Of a stretch of DNA of 57,619 nucleotides, positions 23,210-57,252 are shown in pieces. The notes beneath the pieces were generated by a model. The model did no database searches, was not told the DNA's origin, and was given only the letters and a program-made list of their open reading frames with translations. The stretch covers positions 1 to 57,619 of the forward strand of contig JAZDEY010000040.1 in the NCBI GenBank assembly GCA_043808325.1, given 5' to 3'. This DNA comes from JAZDEY01 sp043808325 [NCBI: Candidatus Eiseniibacteriota bacterium]. Lineage in GTDB: Bacteria > Arandabacterota > Arandabacteria > Arandabacterales. The translations under genes and the position numbers were made by a program. Each line of letters opens with the position of its first letter. The stretch's first letter is position 1.

Positions 23210-26017
23210 GTGACCATGAAATCCATAAGCTCCAGGCTTGATCACCTGGGCCCGAGGCCGGCCTTCGGCTCAAGGGCCGTCCGCGCTCGCGGCAACGCCC
23301 GCCCGAGGGGTGCCTTCCTCGAGAAGGGCTGGGTGATCGCTAATCATATCTTCATGTCGATACACGCGGCGTTTCTGTTCCCTTACTACATCGAGCGGAT
23401 CCTGGCCGGGCTTGGGGTGACGGTTGGTGTCAATATCCTGCCTCGATCCTTCGTGGTCGAAGTGATCACCGGCCTGGCTTATGCCTTTGCCACCTTCTAT
23501 ATCGCCGTGGGCTGGCACGAACGCGGACACTATCTTGAAGCGGTGCGCCAGATCACGCTCAATAACAAATTCCTGGCCGCGGCTCAGAAGCGGGCGGCCC
23601 GGGGGCCCTTGCAGCGCCTTGCGTGGAACATCGAGATGCTGCTCAAGATCCCTGTCGGCAAGTTCGATGGGATCAACAAATTCGGACTGACCTATAGCGT
23701 CGATTCTCCCTATAACCTGGCAGTCAAGGCTGCTGGGCCCCGCGCCAGCAGGAACCTCTTCCTGTTCGCCATCCCCTTTGCGGCCGTCATGCTCGTGCTC
23801 GGGTTTACCACCCGCACCCTCGCGCTGCTCTATGTGGGCAGGATCTTCCTGGGTGTGGCCGTCGTGGGCTTGCTTGATCTCACTTTCGCCGATGCGGGTG
23901 AATACAAGAAGTTTGTCGCCAGTCTCAAGCCCGCCCCGCCGGTGGCCAAAGATGAAGTGACTGAAGGGCGCTGGATCGACCGCGTGATAAAGGTGAAGCA
24001 GCAGATGATCACGACCCGGCTCCAGGAGCTCACGGCGGATCACGTCAAGATCCGCGCTCCGTGGGGGTTCCGCAACTGTGCCATGGGTGGCGCCCATACC
24101 GAGAAGGAGTATCCCGAATCCAACATAAGCATGCAGGAAGGCATGTTCATACCCCTGAGTGCCGAGAACTATGAAGAGGCCCAGCGGATGACCGTGGAGC
24201 TTCAATACAAACTCAAGGAGATCATTGAGCGCACTCCGGGCTGCCGCGTGATGGGCATCGGCCTCGAGGGAGGCCTGGCCACCTTCATCACCAAGGATCC
24301 GGGAGACATCGTCCCCGAACAGAAGATGTGGCGGCTGATGAAGCAGACCATCGAAGCTCTGGGCTACGCACCGGGTGTCCACGTAGCCGTGGCCCTGGAC
24401 CCCGCCGCTTCTCAGCTCCAGGATGCTCACAACATCGCGAAGTATGGGGAAACGCCTGAAGCCAAAGCGAAATGGGAAGCAGGCACCTACAGGTTTTGGC
24501 GCTATACCGATCAAGAAGTGGTGATGAACCGCACCGAGATTCTGGAACTCTACGAGAAAGCGATCGCCGAGGGCGTGCCCATCGTCTCGCTCGAGGACGG
24601 CTTCGCCGAGAACGACTACGAAGGTTGGAAATTGGCCCTGGCCAAACTCGGGGAGAAGCTCTTCATCATCGGGGACGACCTGGTCACGACCAACGACGCT
24701 ACGATCGAGAAGTCGATCGATATGAAGCTTATCAATACGGTGCTGATCAAGGCAAATCAGATCGGCACGCTCTCCGAGACCATTCTGGCGATGCTCACGG
24801 CTCTCGGTCACGGTATGGAGCTCGTGGTATCTCACCGTTCCAAGAGCCCCAACGACGACATGGAGGCTCAGATCGCCGTGGCTGCCGAAGCGATGGGCCT
24901 GAAGGCGGGTGGCGGCGCCAATACCGAACGGCTGGTCAAGTACGGCTCGATCATCAAACTGATGAAGGATCTCTACGAGGAGAAGCTCGCCCGGGAGAAG
25001 GGTGGAGCGGCTCCGGAGTCTGCGGGGGCCGCGCACACTGCGCCGCATGCTGCGCATGCCGCGCCGGGAACCTCGGGCCAGATCTCGCCCGAACTCTCAT
25101 CGGGTCAACTGGACGAGTTCATCAGGGAGCTTACCATAACCCATATCACAGCCTACGAGGAGGCCACCAACGCCGGCATCCCCACGGTGGGAGTCAAGGT
25201 CACGGCCGGTATTGCCGGTGACTCACGCCTGGAGAAACTTCTGTCATTCACAGGATCCACCCCTCTGGGCACATCTGCGGGGACGGGGGAGGCGATTCAC
25301 CTGGTCGACAGTATGATCTTCCCTTCGATGGTGGCCAAAACCTACCCGAAGTTCTTTACCCAGACCGAGGACGGCACCTATCGCTTTGCCAAGGGCGTGC
25401 AGGACGAGGCCGTCGCCGCCAAGAAGGATCGCGACCTTACGCAGGCCTGGACACGAGCCAAGCGTTATGAAGGCAAGGGTTGTCTTAATGCCGTTGACAA
25501 TGCCGAAGGCGTTCTAGCGAGGCTGTTTGTCGGCAAGAAGGTGACCGACCTAAAGAGCATTGCCGCGATCGATCGGGTCCTCCTGAACGCAGAACTAAAG
25601 GCGACCAAGGATGCGGGTCTGCTCGGGAGCGGCACCCCGGATCGTGCTGCCAGGATCGCCGTGATGCAGCGCAAGGGTACGCTTGGCATGAACGCCATCC
25701 TTTCGCTGTCCTTAGCCCTGGCGAGACTCTCGGCCGCCATTGAAGGCAAGGATCTCTGGAGTGGGATACGTGCGCAGATGCAGGAGACCATGGCCAAGGC
25801 GATCGCTGCCGGCGGTGGGGTGAAGCTCCTGCCGGTGGAAGTCGCCAAGCAACTTGGCCCGCAGGAAGGCCGGGAGCTCTGGCAGACCCTCAAGGCGGAG
25901 CTTGATCTCGCCCAGTTCGTACAGGGCCTCCAGGCTCTGGCGCGCAGCAAGCCGGGAGAGGTCAAGCTTCACGAGCTTCTAAGGCAACAGCTGCCTGTAT
26001 ACGACGTTGAAGTGTGA
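23210..26017 (+). CDS. membrane-domain fusion with circularly permuted enolase
   Basis: A 935-residue fusion. Residues 1-255 form a membrane domain with about four hydrophobic helices (45-68, 82-102, 183-200, 203-226) and HERGH at 103-107. Residues 275-595 are the enolase barrel: GGAH (293-296), E310 (MQEGM), E353 (GLEGG), D397 (ALDPAAS), E462 (LEDGF), D489/D490 (IGDD), K514 (LIKANQIGT), HRS (542-544) and K565 all match the catalytic set. A 45-residue Ala/His/Pro linker follows. Residues 640-850 are the enolase capping domain, normally at the N-terminus: IPTVGVKV, loop PLGTSAGTGEA, KGCLNAVDN and GMNAILSLSLALARL. So the domain order is permuted. It should interconvert 2-phosphoglycerate and phosphoenolpyruvate at the membrane. 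GTG 23210 (or ATG 23216) follows AGGGAAGG. Confidence 0.92.
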   Translation: MTMKSISSRLDHLGPRPAFGSRAVRARGNARPRGAFLEKGWVIANHIFMSIHAAFLFPYYIERILAGLGVTVGVNILPRSFVVEVITGLAYAFATFYIAVGWHERGHYLEAVRQITLNNKFLAAAQKRAARGPLQRLAWNIEMLLKIPVGKFDGINKFGLTYSVDSPYNLAVKAAGPRASRNLFLFAIPFAAVMLVLGFTTRTLALLYVGRIFLGVAVVGLLDLTFADAGEYKKFVASLKPAPPVAKDEVTEGRWIDRVIKVKQQMITTRLQELTADHVKIRAPWGFRNCAMGGAHTEKEYPESNISMQEGMFIPLSAENYEEAQRMTVELQYKLKEIIERTPGCRVMGIGLEGGLATFITKDPGDIVPEQKMWRLMKQTIEALGYAPGVHVAVALDPAASQLQDAHNIAKYGETPEAKAKWEAGTYRFWRYTDQEVVMNRTEILELYEKAIAEGVPIVSLEDGFAENDYEGWKLALAKLGEKLFIIGDDLVTTNDATIEKSIDMKLINTVLIKANQIGTLSETILAMLTALGHGMELVVSHRSKSPNDDMEAQIAVAAEAMGLKAGGGANTERLVKYGSIIKLMKDLYEEKLAREKGGAAPESAGAAHTAPHAAHAAPGTSGQISPELSSGQLDEFIRELTITHITAYEEATNAGIPTVGVKVTAGIAGDSRLEKLLSFTGSTPLGTSAGTGEAIHLVDSMIFPSMVAKTYPKFFTQTEDGTYRFAKGVQDEAVAAKKDRDLTQAWTRAKRYEGKGCLNAVDNAEGVLARLFVGKKVTDLKSIAAIDRVLLNAELKATKDAGLLGSGTPDRAARIAVMQRKGTLGMNAILSLSLALARLSAAIEGKDLWSGIRAQMQETMAKAIAAGGGVKLLPVEVAKQLGPQEGRELWQTLKAELDLAQFVQGLQALARSKPGEVKLHELLRQQLPVYDVEV

Positions 26018-32132: not shown

Positions 32133-35100
32133 GTGCCGGAGCCCGAGCGAGTTACGATCAAGATAAATGGTAAGCCGGTCGAAGCCGGTGCGGGGAAGAC
32201 CATCCTCGAGGTGGTCCGCGAGAACCAGATCGACGATATCCCCACGCTGTGCCATTCGCCCGAGCTCGAGCCCTACGCATCGTGCTTCCTGTGCGTCGTC
32301 GAACTCAAAGGCCGGCCGAATCTGGTCCCGGCCTGCGCGACCCGCGTGAGTCCGGGGATGGAGATCGAAACCCGCAGTCCCCGAGTCGTGGAGGCCAGGA
32401 AGACTGCCCTCGAGCTCCTGCTTTCCAATCATTACGCCGATTGTCTCTCACCCTGCATGGAAGGCTGTCCTGCGGGCGTCGACGCTCAGGGCTATATTGC
32501 CCTCTCGGCGATGGGCCTCTATCGTGAAGCGGTCGATCTGATTCGCCAGACCAATCCGCTCCCCGCGGTCTGCGGGCGAGTCTGCGTGCGTAAATGCGAA
32601 GTGGTGTGTCGCCGCGCGGATGTCGACAAAGCGGTCGGCATCAATGCGATCAAGCGCTTTGTCACCGACGCTCCCGGCGCCTATGACGGCAAGCCCGAGT
32701 GCGCCGAGCCCACGGGCAAGACGGTCGCCATTGTGGGGGCAGGTCCTGCGGGCCTTACGGCCGCATGGTTCCTGGCGTGCGAGGGTCACAAGGCCGTGAT
32801 CTACGAGGCGCAGCCGCGGTCCGGGGGAATGCTCCGGTACGGCATCCCGACTTACCGCCTGCCCGATGCCGTGATAGATGCCGAAGTTGGCTATATTGAG
32901 CGGGCCGGTGTGGAGATCCTCTGCGGGAAGACCGTGGGGCGAGATATCTCACTCGACGATCTCGCGAAGCGGTACGATGCCGTTTTTGTCGGGCCCGGCG
33001 CCTGGGCCGCGAAGCCGATGGGTGTCGAAGGGGAGTTTGCGACCCAGGGTGTGATCTCGGGGACCGACTTCCTGCGGGAGAAGACCGACGACCACAGCCC
33101 GCTCAAGGGCACCGTGGTCGTGGTGGGCGGCGGCAACACTGCGATGGATGTGGCTCGCACCTCCTGGCGCTTGGGCGCAGACAAGGTGATCATTCTTTAC
33201 CGAAGAACTCGGGCCGAGATGCCCGCCGACCCTATGGAGATTGAGGATTGTCTCCATGAAGGGGTCGAGCTAATGGAGCTTGCCGCACCGGTCGGTATCG
33301 TGGCCGAAGCGGGCAGGCTCAAGGCGCTCCGGTGCATCAGGATGAAACTGGGTGAGCCGGATTCCTCAGGCAGGCGCCGCCCCGTTCCCCTCGAGGGCTC
33401 CGAATTCGATCTGCCCTGCCATCTTGCGGTAGCGGCAATCGGGCAGAACCCCGTTCTCGAGGGTCTCACCCAGGTCTCGGGAAAGGACCTCAAGTTAACG
33501 CGGTGGAAGACAATCGCGGTTGACACCGAGACCTTCAGGACCAATGTCGAGGGCCTCTTCGCCGGTGGTGACGCCGTCGAGGATGGGCCCACGGTCGTGA
33601 TAGATGCCATACGTGACGGCCAGAAGGCAGCGCGGGCGATCCATGCGCATCTGGCGGGCAAGTCTCTCGCTGCCGCGCCCTTTGCGGTCAAGAAGGAGTT
33701 CTGGGCAAAGCCGGGAGAAGCCGAGCTCGGGCAGGTCAAGGAAAGTCCCAGGCACGAGGTCGCCATGCTCGATGTCGACGCACGCCGCGGCAACTTCGAT
33801 GAGGTGGCCACGGGCCTCCCCTATGAAGACAATGTTCACGAGTGCGACCGCTGCCTTGCGTGCGGGTGCGTACGGTTCCATGACTGTGCTCTCAGGCTTT
33901 ACGCCCAGGAATACGGCGTCGACATGGAGCGCTACAAAGGTCAGGCAAGGCGCCACAAGGTGGATGATCGCCACCCCTACGTCGTCTACGATCCCAATAA
34001 GTGCATCCTGTGCGCAAGGTGCATCCGCACTTGTGCAAAGCTGCTGTCGATCCCGGCCCTTGGGCTGGTGGGACGCGGTTTCAGAACCGAGATGAGACCT
34101 GCGCTCAATGATCCCCTGGTGGAGACCAGCTGCACCAGTTGCGGCAGCTGCATCGATGCCTGCCCCACGGGCGCGCTTACCGCCAAGTATCCTTTTCCGG
34201 GGCGGGCTCCGCTTAAGACCGATGAGGTCGCAACGCGGTGTGGCCTGTGCTCGCTTGGCTGCCGGATCAAGGTCAGACGGTTTGGTCCCGACCGCTATTT
34301 CGTCGTCCCGTCGGGTGTTCCGGGCGAATATCTCTGCCGGTACGGCAGATTCGGATACGAGCTCTTCATCAAACGCAAGCGAATCGCGCGCCCTGAAGTT
34401 CGCCGGGGAAGCGAGCGATGCGAGCCGTCGCTTAGCGAGGCGCAGTCGGCGGTCGCGGCCGAGATGAAGCGCGTGGCCGCCAAGTACGGCCCCTCGAGCG
34501 TAGCCGTCTTTGTCTCCCCCGAGCTCACCAATGAAGAGCTCTATCTGGCGGCAAGGATCGCGCGCGAGGGCCTTGGCACCAACAATATCGGCTCGCTCTC
34601 GATCCTGGCGACCGGCAGGGAAAGCGGACCGCTGGATGCATCGTTCGGCTACACGGCCTCGACCGCCGACCGCTCCTGCCTTCGAGATGCCGACCTCATA
34701 GTCTGCAACAACACCTCCCTGGAATCGGACCACCAGGTGCTCGCCGTAGAAGTGATTCAGGCCGTGAAGACCGGCGCGGGCCTCGTAGTTACGAATTCCA
34801 GCCTTGAGCGGATTGACAAGCTGATTTCATCCCTGGCGATGGATCCCCTGCGGGGGACCGCCTCGGTGCTGTGGGACGCCGTCACCCAGGTCTTACTCGA
34901 TCAAGACTTCTTCACGCGGGAGAAGATCTCCGATCTGCCGGGGGCCGATCGCTTCCTGGCTGACCGGGATACGGCCGCTTCCGGGCGGGCTGGCAGTGAT
35001 CGGGACCTGGCCGGCGCAGCCGATGTCACGGGTGTGAGGCAGGAAGACATCCGCCGGGCCGCCGAACTTCTCCGTGGTGCGAAGCGTGTGGTCTTTATCC

Positions 35101-35813
35101 ACAGTCCTGACCGGCCCCAGGACAGCTCCCCGGGAGACATGCGAACTCTCGCCAATCTTGTTGTTCTTCTGAGATCCGTCGGAGTACGCGCCGATCTCCT
35201 GCTGCCGCGGATCACAGCCAACAGCGCGGCCCTGGAGCCAATGGGCGCCGATCCTGCTTTTGAGCCCGGTCGCGTCCCCAGCCGTCAGGCTCTTCCCGGC
35301 GCGAGGAGCCAAGCCGAACTCAGAAAGTTGCTTGAGGACGGCCAGCTGAGGGCTGCCCTGATCATTGGCGAGGACCCTATGTCCTCGGACGAGACCGGCT
35401 CGTGGTTCCAGAATGTTGAGTTCATGGCGGCGATGGACTGGACGCCGACCGAGACCACCCGCTCTGCCGACGTGGTGCTGCCCGGCTCGACTTACCTTGA
35501 GGAGCGCGGAACCAGGTGCAACTTCGAAGGAAATCTGGTACGATTTTCGGAGGCGGTACCTCCGGCATCCGGATCGTCCGGCGCCGAAGTTCTCCGGGGT
35601 CTCGCAACGGAGTTCGGCATCGCGGTTCCTCGTGACCTCGCCGCCGAGGTCGAGAGAATCGTGGGCGGGGAGCGCAGATCGGATGCCAAGGCGAGCCTCG
35701 TGGCCGCGGAGGCAAAGGCAAGGCCAATGCGCGTGCCGCCGCCGCTCACGGCCGCCGAAAGATACAAGCGAGAGCTAAGAGAGGTTGGAACCGAAAGGTT
35801 CCGTGTACGATAG
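32133..35813 (+). CDS. GltD-like NADPH oxidoreductase fused to NuoG/molybdopterin-type subunit (StnC-like)
   Basis: A 1226-residue multidomain redox protein; GTG at 32133. The order is: [2Fe-2S] ferredoxin (Cys 40, 51, 54, 68); a cluster region with H100, C104, C108, C112; GltD/NfnB-like FAD and NADPH domains (CGRVCVRKCEVVC, GAGPAGL 202-208, VVGGGNTAMD, FAGGDAVEDGP) to about 510; an 8Fe ferredoxin (CILCARCIRTC, CTSCGSCIDACP); then a molybdopterin-oxidoreductase fold starting CGLCSLGC. No catalytic Cys/Sec is evident in the Mo domain, so like NuoG it is probably structural. With the two preceding genes it forms an electron-bifurcating NADH/NADPH/ferredoxin complex, close to the Sporomusa Stn type. 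A catalytic role such as formate oxidation seems unlikely. Confidence 0.88.
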   Translation: MPEPERVTIKINGKPVEAGAGKTILEVVRENQIDDIPTLCHSPELEPYASCFLCVVELKGRPNLVPACATRVSPGMEIETRSPRVVEARKTALELLLSNHYADCLSPCMEGCPAGVDAQGYIALSAMGLYREAVDLIRQTNPLPAVCGRVCVRKCEVVCRRADVDKAVGINAIKRFVTDAPGAYDGKPECAEPTGKTVAIVGAGPAGLTAAWFLACEGHKAVIYEAQPRSGGMLRYGIPTYRLPDAVIDAEVGYIERAGVEILCGKTVGRDISLDDLAKRYDAVFVGPGAWAAKPMGVEGEFATQGVISGTDFLREKTDDHSPLKGTVVVVGGGNTAMDVARTSWRLGADKVIILYRRTRAEMPADPMEIEDCLHEGVELMELAAPVGIVAEAGRLKALRCIRMKLGEPDSSGRRRPVPLEGSEFDLPCHLAVAAIGQNPVLEGLTQVSGKDLKLTRWKTIAVDTETFRTNVEGLFAGGDAVEDGPTVVIDAIRDGQKAARAIHAHLAGKSLAAAPFAVKKEFWAKPGEAELGQVKESPRHEVAMLDVDARRGNFDEVATGLPYEDNVHECDRCLACGCVRFHDCALRLYAQEYGVDMERYKGQARRHKVDDRHPYVVYDPNKCILCARCIRTCAKLLSIPALGLVGRGFRTEMRPALNDPLVETSCTSCGSCIDACPTGALTAKYPFPGRAPLKTDEVATRCGLCSLGCRIKVRRFGPDRYFVVPSGVPGEYLCRYGRFGYELFIKRKRIARPEVRRGSERCEPSLSEAQSAVAAEMKRVAAKYGPSSVAVFVSPELTNEELYLAARIAREGLGTNNIGSLSILATGRESGPLDASFGYTASTADRSCLRDADLIVCNNTSLESDHQVLAVEVIQAVKTGAGLVVTNSSLERIDKLISSLAMDPLRGTASVLWDAVTQVLLDQDFFTREKISDLPGADRFLADRDTAASGRAGSDRDLAGAADVTGVRQEDIRRAAELLRGAKRVVFIHSPDRPQDSSPGDMRTLANLVVLLRSVGVRADLLLPRITANSAALEPMGADPAFEPGRVPSRQALPGARSQAELRKLLEDGQLRAALIIGEDPMSSDETGSWFQNVEFMAAMDWTPTETTRSADVVLPGSTYLEERGTRCNFEGNLVRFSEAVPPASGSSGAEVLRGLATEFGIAVPRDLAAEVERIVGGERRSDAKASLVAAEAKARPMRVPPPLTAAERYKRELREVGTERFRVR

Positions 35814-41878: not shown

Positions 41879-44509
41879 TTGGCAGGCGCTGCAAGCACTG
41901 GAAACGCCAAGAAGGCGATCTGGGTATTTGCCTCGCACCGCGACGGCAGGTTAGATCCCGTTGTGCTGGAGCTTCTGGGTAAGGGCGCCGAATTGGCCGA
42001 GCGGGGAGGCCTCAGGCTTGAGGCCGTGATCTTCGGGGGCCAGGGCGGCACCGCGGCCTGCGCCGGGGTGCATGGCCTTTCCGGGTCGGGTGGCCTTGGT
42101 GGGGCAGGCGACCTCGCCGAGGCGAGTGACCTTGCCGAGGAACTCCTGGACTACGGCGCACTCGCCGTCCACTTGATCAGCGATCCACTCCTTGATACTT
42201 TCTCCACCGTTATTTATGCCCGAGTCTTGGCCGAGCTGGCGCGGCGGCACAAGCCGGACGTGATTTTGCTCGGCTCGGACAGCCGCAACGCCGCCCTGGC
42301 CGCCCGAGTCGCCGCATGTTTGGGGACCGGGCTCTCTGCCCACTGCATCGACCTCAAGTTGGAGCGGGGTCAGCTCGTCCAGACCGTTCCCGGCTTCGGC
42401 GGCAATCTCTTGGCCAATATCATCTGCCCGGAGAAGCGGCCGCAGATGGCGACCGTCACGGCCGGCATATTCACCGCCGTGCATAAGCGCCAACCGGGAG
42501 CGCGGGTAATCAAGAGCGATCTACCGGTTGCGGATGGTTTGCAGGAGCAGGAAGGTCTGGAGAGCATGCGGGGGACGCAGGGTCTTCAGGGCCTCTGCAC
42601 CGTGCGCCAACTCGAGATAAAGAAGCGCGAAGCGCCTGGCAGACGCCCCTTGGAGAGCGCCGACATCGTTGTGGCCGGCGGTTTCGGTGTCGGCAGCCGT
42701 GAGAACTGGGCACTCATTGAAGAACTGGCCTCGCTGCTCAAGGCCGCGGTGGGCGCCACCCGGCCCGCAGTTGACGAAGGCTGGGCCGCACCCGAGCAAA
42801 TGATCGGCGCGAGTGGCAAAGTGATCGCGCCCAGACTCTACATCTGCGCCGGTGTCTCGGGCATGATGCACCATACCGTCGGCATCCGGCACGCCGGGAC
42901 CATCGTCGCCATCAATAGCGACCCTCGTGCACCCATCCTTGCGATGGCCGATTACGGCCTCGTGGGCGACCTCAAAGAAGTGTTGCCGGCCTTGATCCAT
43001 CGGCTGCGAACGGGTGAGTCGCTGGCGGCTGCGATCCAGCCGCCGGGACACACGCGGAGCGCCGAGGAGTTCAAGGAAAGCCTGCGCCGGATGAAGCCCA
43101 ATATGTACAAGTTCGGTACCCTGATCACCGACCCGGTTTCCGATCCGCGCACCAAGCGCGCGATCGAGGGCCACGCCCAGATCTACGAGGCTGCGCGCGA
43201 TCCCCGCTATCAGGATCTCCTGACCACCATCTCACACCTCTCTGGCAAGCGCGTCTCGCGATACCTCTCGATCCTGCGCTCGCCCGAGGATATGTTCGCC
43301 AATAGCAGGCTCAAACGCCTGATGTTCCAGCTTACCGGCACCTGCACCGGCGGCCGCTGCGCCGGCTGGGCGGCCTTGAATGCCATGTGGTCCACCACCT
43401 GGGACATCGATAAGCAGCGCGGCACCAATTACCATCAACGGCTCACCGAGTGGCTTGCGGATGCGCAGGCCCGCGATATCACCGTGGCCGGGGCCCTGAC
43501 CGACGCCAAGGGCAAGCGCCGGCTCGGGCCATCCAAGCAGCCCGACCCCGACATGTATCTTCACGTCGTTGAGCGGCGTTCGGACGGCATCGTCGTGCGT
43601 GGCGCCAAGGTAATGATCTGCGGCACGGCAGCGGCCAATGAGCTCTTCGTCATGCCTACGGCACGGCTCAGACGTGAGGATGCCGACTACGCGGTCTCCT
43701 TTGTGATTCCCAAGGATGCCCCCGGCTTAACGATCGTCGAGGCGCGCCACCCCTCGGATAGGCGCGAGCTGGAGGAAGGCTTTGATAACCCGGTCGTGCG
43801 AGGAGGTATCACCCAGGCGTACATCTTCTTCGACAAAGTCTTCGTGCCCACCGAGCGCATCTTCATGAACGGGGAGTACGACTACGCTGCTGACACGGTC
43901 TCCCGCTTCGCGCTGCCCTACCGGTCGGCGATCGGTGGTTGCGTGGCCGGCCAGGGCGACATTATGATTGGGGCGGCGATCTTGATCGCTCGCGCCAACG
44001 GTCTCGACGAGAAGGTCTTCCGCGACAAGCTCACCCAGATGATCATCAACAACGAGACCACCTTCGGCATGGGCATCGCCGCGGCCGTGATGGGCACGGC
44101 CCATCCTTCAGGCGCCTGGCTGCCTGATCCCCTCATGGCCCACGCCAACAAAGTCTACGTGGCCACGCTGCCCTACGAGACCAAGCGGCTGACCCAGGAG
44201 ATTGCCGGCGGGATCGCTGAGACCGGCTGCATGCCCTCATATGAAGACTTCATGAGTGGTTCCTACGGTCACCTGATCCAGAAATACCTCAAGGCCAACT
44301 CGCCGGCCGAGACCCGCATGCGCATTGCCCGACTGATCGAGTGGCTGACGCTCGGCGCCGGTGTGCCGGGCTGTATGCACGGTGGGGGCTCGCCCGATGG
44401 CGCGCGCATGGCGATCTGGTCTGAGGCCAGGCTTGATGAGATGATAGAGATGGCCAAACGCGTCGGCGGCATCTCCGACATCTCGCTCGCCAAGCCCCCG
44501 GCCAAATAG
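41879..44509 (+). CDS. fusion of EtfA with a 4-hydroxybutyryl-CoA dehydratase-family domain
   Basis: 876 residues; TTG at 41879 follows GAGGAGAG. Residues 1-378 are a complete EtfA: GSDSRNAALAARVAACLG, then the FAD domain with VAGGFGVGSRENW, VGATRPAVDEGW, ICAGVSGMMHHTVGI and AINSDPRAPIL..ADYGLVGDL. Residues 390-876 are an AbfD/HpaB-family domain: YKFGTLITDPV, FSTT-like WSTTWDID, GTNYHQ, ALTDAKG, VVRGAKV, DYAVSF, FVPTERIF, GIAETGCMPSYEDF. In AbfD the [4Fe-4S] ligands are three Cys and one His; here C489/C494 and C688 fit, but Y681 replaces the His. The fusion ties crotonyl-CoA formation or a related dehydration to the Etf/acyl-CoA dehydrogenase pair. Confidence 0.93.
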   Translation: MAGAASTGNAKKAIWVFASHRDGRLDPVVLELLGKGAELAERGGLRLEAVIFGGQGGTAACAGVHGLSGSGGLGGAGDLAEASDLAEELLDYGALAVHLISDPLLDTFSTVIYARVLAELARRHKPDVILLGSDSRNAALAARVAACLGTGLSAHCIDLKLERGQLVQTVPGFGGNLLANIICPEKRPQMATVTAGIFTAVHKRQPGARVIKSDLPVADGLQEQEGLESMRGTQGLQGLCTVRQLEIKKREAPGRRPLESADIVVAGGFGVGSRENWALIEELASLLKAAVGATRPAVDEGWAAPEQMIGASGKVIAPRLYICAGVSGMMHHTVGIRHAGTIVAINSDPRAPILAMADYGLVGDLKEVLPALIHRLRTGESLAAAIQPPGHTRSAEEFKESLRRMKPNMYKFGTLITDPVSDPRTKRAIEGHAQIYEAARDPRYQDLLTTISHLSGKRVSRYLSILRSPEDMFANSRLKRLMFQLTGTCTGGRCAGWAALNAMWSTTWDIDKQRGTNYHQRLTEWLADAQARDITVAGALTDAKGKRRLGPSKQPDPDMYLHVVERRSDGIVVRGAKVMICGTAAANELFVMPTARLRREDADYAVSFVIPKDAPGLTIVEARHPSDRRELEEGFDNPVVRGGITQAYIFFDKVFVPTERIFMNGEYDYAADTVSRFALPYRSAIGGCVAGQGDIMIGAAILIARANGLDEKVFRDKLTQMIINNETTFGMGIAAAVMGTAHPSGAWLPDPLMAHANKVYVATLPYETKRLTQEIAGGIAETGCMPSYEDFMSGSYGHLIQKYLKANSPAETRMRIARLIEWLTLGAGVPGCMHGGGSPDGARMAIWSEARLDEMIEMAKRVGGISDISLAKPPAK

Positions 44510-47747: not shown

Positions 47748-48890
47748 CTATCTTCCGGTATTGATGTGCACAACATTCGCAGGGGGGAAGCCATTGAAGT
47801 GAGACGCGGACACGCAGCTATAGGCACCGATATTCAGGGTGTATAAGAGGTCGCCGTAATCCAGGTTGGCCGGGAGGTGCTCGACCAGCGAGACCTTGTC
47901 GAAGCTGTCACAGGTCGGACCTACCACCGCGCATACCTCCCGCTGCCCCGGCTTGAAGGCCTGGAAGTTGGGTGTCCAATGATCGAAGACCACCCCTGAG
48001 AAATCGTGGTAGAGGCCGTCGTTGATGTGATAGAACCGCTTCCCATCGCGCCGTGCCCGCCCGATGATCTTGGAGACCAAGGTCCCCGCGGTAGCCACGA
48101 TGAAACGTCCGGGCTCGGCCAGAATCTCGGTCGTCTTCTCGGGAAAGAGCTGCGCAATCTCGGAGTTAATGAGTTTGGCCAGTTCATCGAACCTCGGCAC
48201 TTCCTTGTCGTAGGGCGCAGGGAAGCCGCCGCCTATATCGATCAGATTAAGCTTCTTCTCGGTCCCGCTGCGCCTACGGTTGGCGGCGACAAAGATCTTG
48301 TGCGCGGTCGAGAGGGCATCGACATAGTTGCCGGAGTTCATGCACTGGCTGCCGACGTGGAAACTCAAGCCCTCCACGGTCATCCCCGAGGCAAAGGCCT
48401 TCTGGATCAGGTCGTTGGCCTCGGCCGCGGCCACCCCGAACTTGGAATTGAGCTCCACGATCGAGCCAGTATCGGAGACGGTCAAGCGCAGGATGAGTCC
48501 GGCGGTATCGCAATGGCGCCTGATCTTCCTCATCTCGTCCTCGTTGTCGAAGGCCACGAGCGGCCGGTAGGGCCTCAAGGCCTCAAGCGTCTCGACGTCC
48601 TTGATGGTGTTCGAGAAGATGATTCTGTCCCAGATGTAACCGAAACGCTTCTTGTCCGGCCAGCCCGTGATGTGCTTGTGGACTGTCTTGAATTCGGGGA
48701 AAGAGGCGACGTCGAAACTGGCGCCCTCGTCGAAGAGCGTCTTGATGATCTCCGGGTCGGAATTTGCCTTGACGGCGTAGTAGCATTGGACCCGCGGCAA
48801 GTGCTTCTTGAACCGCCGGTAGTTCCGCCTGATCTCATCGTGGTCGAAAATCAGGAGCGGGGTGCCGTGCTTCTTGACCAGCGCCAGCAT
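47748..48890 (-). CDS. ornithine/lysine/arginine decarboxylase, fold-type III PLP enzyme
   Basis: 380 residues from ATG 48890 (AGGAAG upstream); TTG 48926 and ATG 48905 are alternatives. Eukaryotic-type ornithine decarboxylase family: PLP lysine in YYAVKAN (residue 41), FDVASFPEF, LRLTVSDTGSIVELNSKFG, LSFHVGSQC, IDIGGGFP, AEPGRFIVA and the active-site Cys/Asp in GPTCDSFD. The GPTCDSFD and SDTG context favours ornithine or lysine over diaminopimelate. It makes a diamine (putrescine or cadaverine). It follows the deoxyhypusine-synthase-like gene with an overlap or a 19-bp gap, so both act in polyamine synthesis. Confidence 0.9.
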   Translation of the reverse strand: MLALVKKHGTPLLIFDHDEIRRNYRRFKKHLPRVQCYYAVKANSDPEIIKTLFDEGASFDVASFPEFKTVHKHITGWPDKKRFGYIWDRIIFSNTIKDVETLEALRPYRPLVAFDNEDEMRKIRRHCDTAGLILRLTVSDTGSIVELNSKFGVAAAEANDLIQKAFASGMTVEGLSFHVGSQCMNSGNYVDALSTAHKIFVAANRRRSGTEKKLNLIDIGGGFPAPYDKEVPRFDELAKLINSEIAQLFPEKTTEILAEPGRFIVATAGTLVSKIIGRARRDGKRFYHINDGLYHDFSGVVFDHWTPNFQAFKPGQREVCAVVGPTCDSFDKVSLVEHLPANLDYGDLLYTLNIGAYSCVSASHFNGFPPANVVHINTGR

Positions 48891-48909
48891 GATCTTCCTA
48901 CCCATTTTC

Positions 48910-50130
48910 TTATTGATTGTTTTCAAGCAACCCCTCCAACTCCTTCATCTCCTTGGGCGCACTCTTTCGGAAGTTCCTGAAATATGCCGCACGCAGTCTG
49001 GCGAAGAGTTCGGCCCGCCGGTCATAGAGCCGCCTCAGCTTCTTGGGTCCGGTGTTCTGCAGGACATAGGCCGTGATCAGCGGCAGAGCTATGGTGCAGT
49101 CGGCATAGACGATGACGCTCGAGGCGACGCTATCCGGGTCGATCTTGCCCCAGGTGACCGCCTCGTTGGGCGTGGCGCCCGAGAGGCCACCGGTATCAAC
49201 CCTGGCGTCCGTGATCTGGATGAAATAGTCCTGCCCCGCCTCCTTGATCCGCAATATCTCTTGGATCTGAGGCTCAGTCTGGAGCATGAAGTTCTTGGGC
49301 GAGCCGCCGCCCACCAGGATCACCCCGGTCTTGCCCTTCTCGTATTTCTTAGCGTTCAAGATGATCGCAGTGGACTCGTTGACGTCGATACTGGGGTTGA
49401 TCTTGAGCTTGAACTTGTCGCTCAGGAGTTCCAACCCGGCCACGTTCATGCCGATCGTGCTGTCCCCAGGGGATGATGTGAAGACAGGGATGCCGCTACG
49501 GTAAGCGGCAGCGAGGATGCTCACCCGGCCGGTCTTGTTGGCCCGCTCCGCCCGATCGAGCACCTTCCCCAGAATGTGATAGAACTCTTGGGTCCCCATC
49601 TCTCGCTGAAACTCGCGCCCGGCCAGGATCTTCCGCAGCCGTCGGTCGGTCTCCATCAGGACGGCCTCGTAATCGAAGAGGACGTCGTAGATCCTGGTGA
49701 CTCCAGCCTTCCGGAGCGCGCAGTCATCCACATTGGGCGTACCCTCAAAGAGGGGGAGATCAAAGGCATAATGCATGTCGTGATACATGTTGGCACCGGT
49801 GGCGACGATCCAATCGATGAAGCCGTGCTCCATGAGGGCGATGACCGACGACTGCATCCCGGCCGGCGTGAGCGCTCCCGCCAGGCTCATCCCCACGGTG
49901 ACATCCGGCTGCGCGTACTTGGCCCGGAGGAGCCGGCAAGCGTCCTTCACGCGCCCGGCGTTATAGGCATTGAATGTTCTCTCGATGAGGTCGCTGACCG
50001 TGTACCTGCTGGTAATCGGCTGCGGCTTGATCCTCTTCCCACCGAGATAGGCGCTCTTCCCGCTATTCTCGTTCTTCCCGTTTCTCCCGCTTTTCCCCGT
50101 GCGGTTCTTATTGATCGGGCAGTTCTTCAT
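48910..50130 (-). CDS. deoxyhypusine synthase-like enzyme (probable homospermidine/polyamine synthase)
   Basis: 406 residues; ATG 50130 has AAGGAG eight bases upstream. Deoxyhypusine synthase fold: LAGALTPAGMQ, TGANMYHD, PVFTSSPGDSTIGMN, VGGGSPKN and the catalytic lysine K329 in NEAVTWGKID, which forms the aminobutyl-imine intermediate. Bacteria lack eIF5A, and bacterial homologs are generally homospermidine synthases, so this probably joins aminobutyl groups onto putrescine supplied by the adjacent decarboxylase. The first 40 residues are a Lys/Asn/Gly-rich extension encoded by 9-bp repeats (50053-50097) and are not part of the fold. Confidence 0.9.
   Translation of the reverse strand: MKNCPINKNRTGKSGRNGKNENSGKSAYLGGKRIKPQPITSRYTVSDLIERTFNAYNAGRVKDACRLLRAKYAQPDVTVGMSLAGALTPAGMQSSVIALMEHGFIDWIVATGANMYHDMHYAFDLPLFEGTPNVDDCALRKAGVTRIYDVLFDYEAVLMETDRRLRKILAGREFQREMGTQEFYHILGKVLDRAERANKTGRVSILAAAYRSGIPVFTSSPGDSTIGMNVAGLELLSDKFKLKINPSIDVNESTAIILNAKKYEKGKTGVILVGGGSPKNFMLQTEPQIQEILRIKEAGQDYFIQITDARVDTGGLSGATPNEAVTWGKIDPDSVASSVIVYADCTIALPLITAYVLQNTGPKKLRRLYDRRAELFARLRAAYFRNFRKSAPKEMKELEGLLENNQ
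50053..50097 (-). repeat. five-unit in-frame 9-bp tandem repeat in the DHS-like gene
   Basis: Plus-strand units GCTCTTCCC, GCTATTCTC, GTTCTTCCC, GTTTCTCCC, GCTTTTCCC. In the gene they encode GKS-GRN-GKN-ENS-GKS (residues 12-26). Confidence 0.85.
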
Positions 50131-54982: not shown

Positions 54983-56746
54983 CTACCTTGCGTGGGAGGC
55001 TGCGCCCCGATTAATAAGGAGTTGAATGATGTTCGCATCACTGCATGGGACCGCAAGGTCCACGTAGCCGTCACCGCTGAAGTCAGCAACTCCCGGCCCG
55101 CATGGGTACGCCGCCAGTTCATAATCTTTGTGCCCGCCAAACGTACCGTCGCCGTTGCCGTAGAGGATGGAGAAAGTGTTGCTTTGACCCTGGTTGATTG
55201 TCACGAGGTCGACCCTCCCCGACCTTCGCAGGTCTGCCAACACTGGCACGACAGGCGAAGGCCCTGTTTCGAAATCACGGCGGTCTCCAAACGAGCCATC
55301 CCCTTGACCGAGCCACACCGAAACGAGTCCTTTGTACTTAGAATGAGAACACGGTGCAATCAGGTCAAGACGCCCGTCGCTATTCAGATCCCGCAGTGCA
55401 ACACGAATCGGAAATGTGGCGCCAGCCGTGAGCGCATGTGGAGCTCCAAATGTACCGTCACCGTTTCCGCGACGCACAGTCACTTGATTCGTCCCCGAGT
55501 GTCCACCCACGGCAACGTCGAGGATGCCATCCCCATTCAAGTCGCCAAGGGCTGGAATGCCGCCACTGTCACCCTTCAGTGGGTCAATGGCCCGAAAAGT
55601 TCCCATACCGTCCCCTAGCAATACCGAGATGTAGCCCGGCCCTTCGCCGGTTTCGTGCGCTACCAGGGCATCCAGATGCCCGTCCCTATCCAGGTCCCCG
55701 AGAGTCAAGCATCTCAATCTTCCATCAAGGGGCGTGACAATTGGGCTCTTGAACACCCTGTAACCGTTCAGCAGCACAACTACTCCTCCGTTGCACTGCG
55801 TCACCACTAGGTCCGAGCGCCAGTCTCCGTCTACATCGCCGGCTGCCAGGGCGTAGGGAGTGCCCTCTGTCAAGTAGTCGTCTCGGTTCCCGAACTTGCC
55901 GTGACCAATGCTCGGGAAGATGGCGACAGTCGGCTTCTTCCAGCTGCACGCCGCGATGTCCGGACGACCGTCACCGTTGAAGTCCTCCACGACAACCGTA
56001 GAAGGATTTACAACTCCTTCGAGCTTCGGGTACCGCATAGAAGGACTCACCATTCCTCCGAGCTCCGGGAACCGCATCGCGAAAGGCCCCGCGCTGGGCT
56101 TGTAGGAGGACCAGACAACGACTGCCGCGATTAGCACTGGAACGATCCCGAGCCACAGACCGTAACGTCGCCATCTGGACTTCTTAAACGGACGTCGAAC
56201 CGGAGGCGGGACTGGAGTTAGAACCGGAGCTGGCGCCGGTGTTGGCGCTGGAGTTGGGGGCCGATACTTTAGTAGTCGGCGCTCTCGTAGCGGGTCTGGT
56301 TTGCGCAACGACCCTTCAACCCCCAGGGTTCTCATGCCCGCGACGATTCGCGCAACAACGGACTCGACTTCGTCGGACCAGGTCGTCTCGCTCAGATCCA
56401 AGGCCACTGCCGTCCCCAGCACCATGTCCCAGGTCTCCCTCTTGCGCCGGAAATCGGCATCGGAGACTCCCAGCCTGACAGGGAAGAAGGGGGGCCGCGG
56501 ATGCCTCCTGTGGGCAAACTCGAGCTCCTTGTCCACTTCATCCGACGAGAGCGAGTGCCACGAGATCAAGAGCAGGAACACACTCGCTGCGTTGATTTCC
56601 CGGACCGCCTGCGTGAGGTAAGGGACTCCACCCACGCTGTCGATCCCGAACACCCAGGTGGAGTAGAGCCTACGTTCCAGCTCCAGTGCGATGGCAAAAG
56701 CCACCCGCTCGTCTTCCTTCGCATAACTGATGAAGATGTCGGTCAT
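54983..56746 (-). CDS. TIR domain - transmembrane - FG-GAP propeller protein
   Basis: 587 residues from ATG 56746 (AAAGAGGCGAG upstream). Residues 1-140 are a TIR domain: DIFISYAKEDERVA, GIDSVGG, FLLLISWHSLSSDEVDKELEFA; E74 sits where NAD-cleaving TIRs have their catalytic glutamate. Residues 160-190 are a Pro/Ala/Thr hinge and a basic patch (RRPFKKSRWRR), followed by one membrane helix (196-213). The C-terminal 340 residues carry seven calcium-type FG-GAP/VCBS loops (DFNGDGRPDI, DVDGDWRSDL, DLDRDGHLDA, DLNGDGILDV, DLNSDGRLDL, DLRRSGRVDL, DFSGDGYVDL), which fits a seven-blade propeller. The basic-inside rule puts TIR in the cytoplasm and the propeller outside: a receptor-like layout. Substrate and ligand are unknown. 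Confidence 0.88.
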   Translation of the reverse strand: MTDIFISYAKEDERVAFAIALELERRLYSTWVFGIDSVGGVPYLTQAVREINAASVFLLLISWHSLSSDEVDKELEFAHRRHPRPPFFPVRLGVSDADFRRKRETWDMVLGTAVALDLSETTWSDEVESVVARIVAGMRTLGVEGSLRKPDPLRERRLLKYRPPTPAPTPAPAPVLTPVPPPVRRPFKKSRWRRYGLWLGIVPVLIAAVVVWSSYKPSAGPFAMRFPELGGMVSPSMRYPKLEGVVNPSTVVVEDFNGDGRPDIAACSWKKPTVAIFPSIGHGKFGNRDDYLTEGTPYALAAGDVDGDWRSDLVVTQCNGGVVVLLNGYRVFKSPIVTPLDGRLRCLTLGDLDRDGHLDALVAHETGEGPGYISVLLGDGMGTFRAIDPLKGDSGGIPALGDLNGDGILDVAVGGHSGTNQVTVRRGNGDGTFGAPHALTAGATFPIRVALRDLNSDGRLDLIAPCSHSKYKGLVSVWLGQGDGSFGDRRDFETGPSPVVPVLADLRRSGRVDLVTINQGQSNTFSILYGNGDGTFGGHKDYELAAYPCGPGVADFSGDGYVDLAVPCSDANIIQLLINRGAASHAR

Positions 56747-57252
56747 TTCACTCGCCTCTTTCGGGGGGGCGTCAGTGCAGGTGCGGGCGACCTCCCCATG
56801 CCCGTCGGAGCAACTCCCCGGGGCACATGTGCGGGGCTGCAGATGGGTCCTCAAGTCGCCTTAGGCCTGGGGCTCCGATCCGCAGCCAGACAAATCCCAA
56901 CCGCCAATACCCCATGAGTACCATACTCTAAGAGCACCTGTCAATGTGCTCGAAGGCCATTATCTGTGTTATGCAGTTTCAAGATGACACTGCAATTGAC
57001 CTTCCCCACGAAAACTGGGCCGGTTGCAGTTAGGGTGCTTAGAGGGGCAAAGACAAGGGAAGACATCACGGGACAAGCAGGACTTAGTTGAAAGAGGTTC
57101 AGGTAGTTACACGACTTCTGCTCTCTCGGTGTTTTCTCTCATTTCAGGCTGTCTTGGCCGGCTCCATTAGCAAAACGGCAAGGCTTTGCTGGTCTCAAGT
57201 CTGCTGGTCGGCCTGCTAACCCCCAGCGCTCCGCCTCCCGCCAGTCAAAGGA
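56747..57252. other. intergenic region with repeat copy 2
   Basis: This stretch of about 500 bp holds no convincing gene apart from the direct repeat at 57053-57180. Upstream of the TIR start it probably contains that gene's promoter, but I see no clear -35/-10 pair. Confidence 0.5.
57053..57180. repeat. direct repeat, copy 2, right of the TIR gene
   Basis: A 128-bp match to 54711-54850 in the same orientation, with small gaps. The end CAAAACGGCA matches CAAGACGGCA of copy 1. The internal inverted repeats of copy 1 are degraded here. Confidence 0.85.

Follow-up and report, generated by a model that had tools for sequence, protein, structure and literature searches.

A gene in contig JAZDEY010000040.1 almost certainly encodes a membrane domain joined to a circularly permuted enolase, in which the catalytic barrel precedes the capping domain. 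The window analyzed here is the whole 57,619-nucleotide stretch of that contig, and residue numbers refer to its 935-amino-acid permuted-enolase protein. Few enzymes of central metabolism are as highly conserved as enolase, for which we know of only one domain order. Six other genomes (G001, G062, G063, G286, G292 and G267) encode the same reversed order; in the first five, the membrane domain and permuted enolase form the N-terminal start of a giant protein. On balance, we lean towards a membrane-held enolase module that would interconvert 2-phosphoglycerate and phosphoenolpyruvate (PEP), working together with an ATP-driven phosphohistidine module.

Domain order, fold and active site

The gene is organized as follows, with model confidence given as the predicted local distance difference test (pLDDT):

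23210..26017, plus strand: whole gene, membrane domain plus circularly permuted enolase, 935 amino acids; GTG start at 23210, single open reading frame without internal stop
23315..24025, plus strand: M50-like membrane domain, residues 36–272, assigned by identity to relatives and a weak PF02163 match
23516..23530, plus strand: HERGH, an HExxH metal-site motif, residues 103–107; HExGH in six of the seven proteins, absent from G267
23876..23878, plus strand: Asp223 in LLD, candidate third metal ligand (a putative role); Asp in the same six proteins, Gly in G267
24053..24985, plus strand: enolase catalytic TIM barrel, residues 282–592, the first enolase part in the chain (PF00113; VIA-align)
24995..25129, plus strand: Ala/His/Pro-rich linker from barrel to cap, residues 596–640 (about); pLDDT below 50 at 604–628
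25130..25819, plus strand: enolase capping (N-terminal) domain, placed last, residues 641–870 (PF03952; cap model)
25262..25294, plus strand: mobile loop PLGTSAGTGEA with Ser689; gap-free alignment to PSGASTGxxEA, Ser in all seven proteins
25820..26014, plus strand: helical C-terminal extension, residues 871–935 (alignment with relatives; model)

Pfam matched Enolase_C (PF00113) to residues 286–591 (8e-52; 176.8 bits against a cut-off of 21.5) and, after it, Enolase_N (PF03952) to residues 643–806 (3.7e-10; 40.5 bits against a cut-off of 35). All seven permuted proteins place the barrel before the cap, as judged by Pfam for the window protein, L001, L041 and L042 (the Enolase_N match of L042 lying below the Pfam cut-off) and by alignment for the others. 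A first, sequence-only reading of the window had proposed exactly this order behind a membrane domain, and both parts of the proposal are borne out. Invisible to that reader were the resemblance of the membrane domain to the M50 (site-2 protease) family, the relatives in other genomes and the partner of pyruvate phosphate dikinase (PPDK) type.

The AlphaFold2 model of the barrel (residues 282–591) superposed on residues 145–419 of E. coli enolase with a VIA-align Z of 27.4 and 2.0 Å over 274 residues, and the barrel is 30–36% identical to solved enolases. Modeled alone, the cap reached a pLDDT of 69.0 and a predicted TM-score (pTM) of 0.59. All 50 entries listed for it by VIA-align were enolases (Z 13.8–15.1 over 111–132 residues), with T. 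brucei enolase 2ptx matched over 117 residues at 1.6 Å, and Foldseek likewise returned enolases for 50 of 50 among the matches listed. Two VIA-align rows of the barrel comparison, whose match reaches residue 901, were not used as evidence. These matches to enolase N-terminal domains answer the concern, voiced in the sequence-only reading, that the C-terminal part might not form an enolase cap.

Several measures weigh against so simple an assignment. The Foldseek TM-scores of the cap model are low (about 0.30–0.36 by query length), and the whole-protein AlphaFold2 model is of moderate quality (mean pLDDT 68.4, pTM 0.62). It is better in the barrel and most of the cap, while the N-terminus, the mobile loop and parts of the membrane domain are poorly modeled; in ten-residue blocks, the membrane part spans pLDDT 29–83. 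The NCBIfam enolase equivalog TIGR01060 gives 213.9 bits, below its cut-off of 300, and only 217.9 bits when the halves are put into the ordinary order. Because the score barely rises on reordering, the reversed order was rejected as its sole cause, and the window enolase is, judged by its sequence, divergent as well as permuted. Its cap has inserts missing from the ordinary enolases aligned.

The gene itself appears sound. An in-frame ATG at 23216 offers an alternative start, and G+C content at third codon positions runs at 0.69–0.82 across seven consecutive blocks. The chance that we are dealing with an artefact (two genes joined by a frameshift or in assembly, or a pseudogene in decay) is negligible; nothing was found in its favor, and against it stand the single open frame, the steady codon-position G+C and the identical permuted order in six other genomes, relatives that already refute it. 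The frameshift or assembly objection, which the sequence-only reading had itself raised, fails because the reversed order is conserved in those genomes; the rearranged membrane-bound enolase is a real gene arrangement and not an error. The 45-residue Ala/His/Pro linker described in that reading is present but peculiar to the window protein, the five nearest relatives having a shorter one. The window protein terminates four residues past the point at which the long relatives continue.

All seven permuted proteins share the 12 catalytic residues tested (H296, E310, E353, D397, E462, D489, K514, H542, R543, S544, K565 and S689), although the window protein and the most distant of the others have no more than 30% identity. 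Invariant positions make up 96 of 654 window residues, so that the crude chance of 12 random residues all being invariant is 5e-11. In the alignment with ordinary enolases, five barrels carry the same residues at the 11 barrel positions and five caps match at S689; a Lys in the cap rows at position 462 of the alignment is a misplaced fragment. Every catalytic position from E310 to K565, and the mobile loop, lies where the sequence-only reading had placed it. The loop is modeled with pLDDT below 50 (residues 688–703). We take Ser689 to be the equivalent of Ser39 of yeast enolase, in which the residues contacting 2-phosphoglycerate are presumably Ser39, His159, Arg374, Ser375, Lys345 and Lys396.

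A single tree, built from 35 barrels, has a branch (support 91/95, in 92% of bootstrap trees) with all seven permuted sequences on the same side, distant from their own hosts' ordinary enolases; G267 has a branch length of 10, and its placement is unsure. This tree does not support the idea that each host recently permuted its own enolase. Given that distance, the permuted enolase seems to be an ancient paralogous lineage and not the product of a recent rearrangement.

Relatives, long fusions and the membrane domain

Scanning the genomes of 84,980 species with short peptides yielded seven loci, one of which was permuted (L001, in G001, a metagenome-assembled genome of Candidatus Krumholzibacteriia), the other six being ordinary enolases. 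The L001 architecture also occurs in G062 and G063, which with G001 make three of that phylum's 80 genomes, and in G286 and G292, two of the five genomes of another phylum; a separate-gene version is found in G267, one of the two genomes of its phylum. The family is thus uncommon, yet its members come from at least three phyla in the genome collection, in addition to the window. For an SdhA-like protein of the window, so named by eye, the best long match has 40% identity, among 11 of 11 genomes with a match. The permuted modules of the five fusions are 46–48% identical to that of the window. A permuted-enolase profile run against 386 genomes scored 1065 bits in G286, 1063 in G292 and 473 in G267; among the matches listed, the next best, at 213 bits, and all further rows cover little more than the barrel.

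The window membrane domain was matched in six of 289 relatives of G001, namely four fusions, G267 and a weak match in G114 (E 3.6e-4) that we do not count as a family member. The corresponding profile picked up five of 386 relatives of G286 (G286, G292, G267 and two genomes with RseP-like proteins) and two of 386 relatives of G267; the genome samples overlap. Two scans of viral contigs found no relative. Among plasmids, 1115 records matched, none over 80% of the query, and in the five listed the match is confined to the barrel region.

The frames of the fusions measure 2367 (G001), 2087 (G062), at least 1603 (G063, reaching the contig end), 2217 (G286) and 2086 (G292) amino acids. After the permuted enolase comes a region of about 600 residues, helical by eye, which was detected in four of 387 genomes, all four being these fusions (G292 was not reported in that sample). 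In the four uncut long forms, it is followed by the ATP-binding domain and the swivelling His domain of PPDK, with the motif GG(S/A)(S/T)SH in each of the four that reach the His domain. Specifically, the PPDK half of L001 matches PPDK residues 13–339 at 1.5e-54, plus the His domain at 424–510 (Pfam and PDB matches); in G286 (L041), PPDK_N and the mobile domain were recognized by Pfam, and in G062 and G292 (loci L030 and L045) the half was assigned by alignment with L001. The PEP/pyruvate barrel was matched neither in L001, where no match extends past PPDK residue 510 and the His domain is the last of the protein, nor by Pfam in G286. L001 also contains an HD domain match just below the Pfam cut-off. 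The fused and the separate arrangement are:

L001 5827–12930, plus strand: fusion of 2367 amino acids, comprising M50-like domain, permuted enolase, weak HD, 600-residue region and PPDK half
L062 1899–7131, minus strand: G267 gene trio, adjacent and on the same strand, in the order PPDK-like protein of 858 amino acids, membrane domain without HExxH, permuted enolase

A frame for an M1-type peptidase ends 72 bases upstream of the L001 fusion. The G286 fusion (L041 4964–5500, minus strand) is without a stretch that follows the His motif in the other three uncut long forms, through either a natural deletion or an assembly gap.

The 858-residue protein of G267 matches PPDK residues 60–469 at 1.2e-21. 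Fusion in some lineages and neighboring genes in another are classic evidence of a working association; since the PPDK half is fused in some relatives and adjacent in G267, we take it to be associated in this way with the permuted enolase.

The membrane domain of the window protein is 35–40% identical to those of the five fusion proteins and 26% identical to the G267 gene. No Pfam family matched it above cut-off, PF02163 reaching 10.9 bits in the window protein against a cut-off of 27.2. A permissive scan gave weak PF02163 matches in six of the seven members (best E 0.003; window E 0.28) and no PDZ match, and a search of PDB sequences with the membrane-domain profile gave no match up to E 10. 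The two additional proteins collected by this profile are RseP-like by motif; in hhalign, their HExGH and AAGP motifs align in order with those of the membrane domain (probability 65%, E 6e-5). HExGH and Asp223 are kept in six members and lost together in G267, which suggests a metal site that is present in most members and dispensable for the association. The window protein is presumably inserted into the membrane through this domain.

Proposed function and alternatives

We propose that the M50-like domain holds the circularly permuted enolase at the membrane, and that the cap docks onto the barrel so that the two, folding as in an ordinary enolase, should re-form the two-metal active site. 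From such a site would follow the interconversion of 2-phosphoglycerate and PEP at the membrane, and enolase catalysis by the permuted module is probable. The window gene would be the short form of a conserved system containing the PPDK ATP-binding half and swivelling phosphohistidine domain, a partner half that is fused in four relatives (the fifth running off its contig) and encoded next to the enolase in the sixth; the window's genome may encode such a partner elsewhere. The enolase step would then most likely draw on phosphoryl transfer from ATP via the phosphohistidine, although we hold this coupling to PPDK-type phosphotransfer more tentatively than catalysis itself.

Further observations count against this proposal. 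Separate ordinary enolases are present in five of the six related genomes (G001, G062, G063, G286 and G267; in G292, a possibly incomplete genome, only the permuted enolase was found), and therefore glycolysis need not use the permuted one. In all six permuted proteins other than that of G267, SHRSKSPNDD replaces SHRSGE(T/S)ED beside the catalytic residues, and the catalytic loop is lengthened to GG(A/R)HTE(K/V)EYPESN(I/V)SMQE. Nothing convincing for a PPDK part emerged from the window when it was searched by tblastn with five C-terminal regions (best E 0.21 among the matches listed), nor did Pfam scans of 30 window stretches detect one, scans in which weak matches could be missed and which left other open reading frames unscanned (E cut-offs of 0.01, 1e-6, 1e-6 and 1e-4 for 9, 10, 10 and 1 stretches; counted among the 30 are the membrane part of the enolase gene itself and a shorter repeat). 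The sequence-only description of a membrane-anchored glycolytic enzyme is accordingly too narrow, given the ordinary enolases of most related genomes and the place of the module in a larger system with a PPDK-like half.

The group-specific changes adjoin catalytic residues and therefore leave room for a changed substrate. An enolase-type enzyme of this kind would apply the same phosphate-binding, two-metal chemistry to another phosphorylated 2-hydroxy acid, perhaps one attached to the membrane or to a lipid, or one supplied by the PPDK-type half. The altered segments SHRSKSPNDD and HTE(K/V)EYPESN would fit such a shift, as would the ordinary enolases of the hosts, the equivalog score below cut-off in either order and the very distant branch in the barrel tree. 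We nevertheless consider it unlikely, as all residues that we take to contact 2-phosphoglycerate are kept.

More doubtful is a sensor or scaffold, a module that would bind 2-phosphoglycerate or PEP with no useful turnover and thereby control either the membrane protease-like domain or the dikinase half. Its attraction lies in the company the enolase keeps: an M50-like domain with HExGH and Asp and, in L001, a PPDK half and a weak HD match as well. All seven proteins, even the most divergent, retain the full set of general acid/base and metal residues, which exceeds the needs of binding.

An enolase module acting on 2-phosphoglycerate and PEP at the membrane remains our preferred reading. It has a bolder version, in which the enolase barrel replaces the PEP/pyruvate barrel of PPDK and the phosphohistidine carries the phosphoryl group of ATP to a substrate that the permuted enolase holds or receives. 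We regard this version as a long shot; if true, one membrane machine would run from pyruvate through PEP to 2-phosphoglycerate, or from glycerate through 2-phosphoglycerate to PEP, and would pass the intermediate on within the complex.

A permutation that has persisted in lineages of at least three phyla, looks catalytically intact and is tied to a membrane domain and a PPDK half offers a direct test of whether domain order matters to the folding of enolase. It also tests whether glycolytic steps can be organized on a bacterial membrane, and whether the phosphohistidine arm of PPDK can serve a new acceptor domain.

Other genes of the window and comparison with known systems

Other frames lie elsewhere in the window:

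32133–35813, plus strand: frame of 1226 amino acids with 2Fe-2S, pyridine nucleotide-disulphide oxidoreductase, ferredoxin and molybdopterin oxidoreductase domains, preceded by two frames with matches to 2Fe-2S (NADH dehydrogenase-type) and Nuo51 domains
41879–44509, plus strand: frame of 876 amino acids with electron-transfer flavoprotein alpha domains and a complete HpaB-type (4-hydroxyphenylacetate 3-hydroxylase family) enzyme, adjoining an acyl-CoA dehydrogenase and another electron-transfer flavoprotein
47748–50130, minus strand: deoxyhypusine synthase family gene adjoining an Orn/DAP/Arg decarboxylase family gene
54983–56854, minus strand: frame of 623 amino acids with a TIR_2 domain near the N-terminus, then FG-GAP repeats

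The swapped-order membrane enolase is apparently undescribed so far. The sequence-only reading knew of no account of the architecture, and we found none in the open-access full-text literature, subscription papers and protein-database architectures lying outside the scope of the search; passages of PMC2575518 and PMC5715807 do not deal with it.

PPDK has an ATP-binding domain, a swivelling phosphohistidine domain and a PEP/pyruvate barrel, and RseP is a protease. Compared with enolase (PF03952 plus PF00113; TIGR01060), the window protein shares the TIM-barrel and capping-domain folds, all 12 catalytic positions tested and the mobile Ser loop, whereas it differs in its reversed domain order, in the inserts of the cap and catalytic loop, in its membrane domain and in scoring below the equivalog cut-off in either order. 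With M50/site-2 proteases (PF02163; RseP), the membrane domain has in common HExGH followed by AAGP and a weak profile match in six of seven members; unlike them, it has no PDZ match, carries LLDxxxADxGxY instead of LDG, stays below the Pfam cut-off and has lost the metal site in G267. The long relatives share with the N-terminal half of PPDK (TIGR01828) the ATP-binding and swivelling His domains, a half seen in these relatives and not in the window gene; in contrast to PPDK, they are without the PEP/pyruvate barrel and instead contain an enolase barrel and a 600-residue region lacking a known match.
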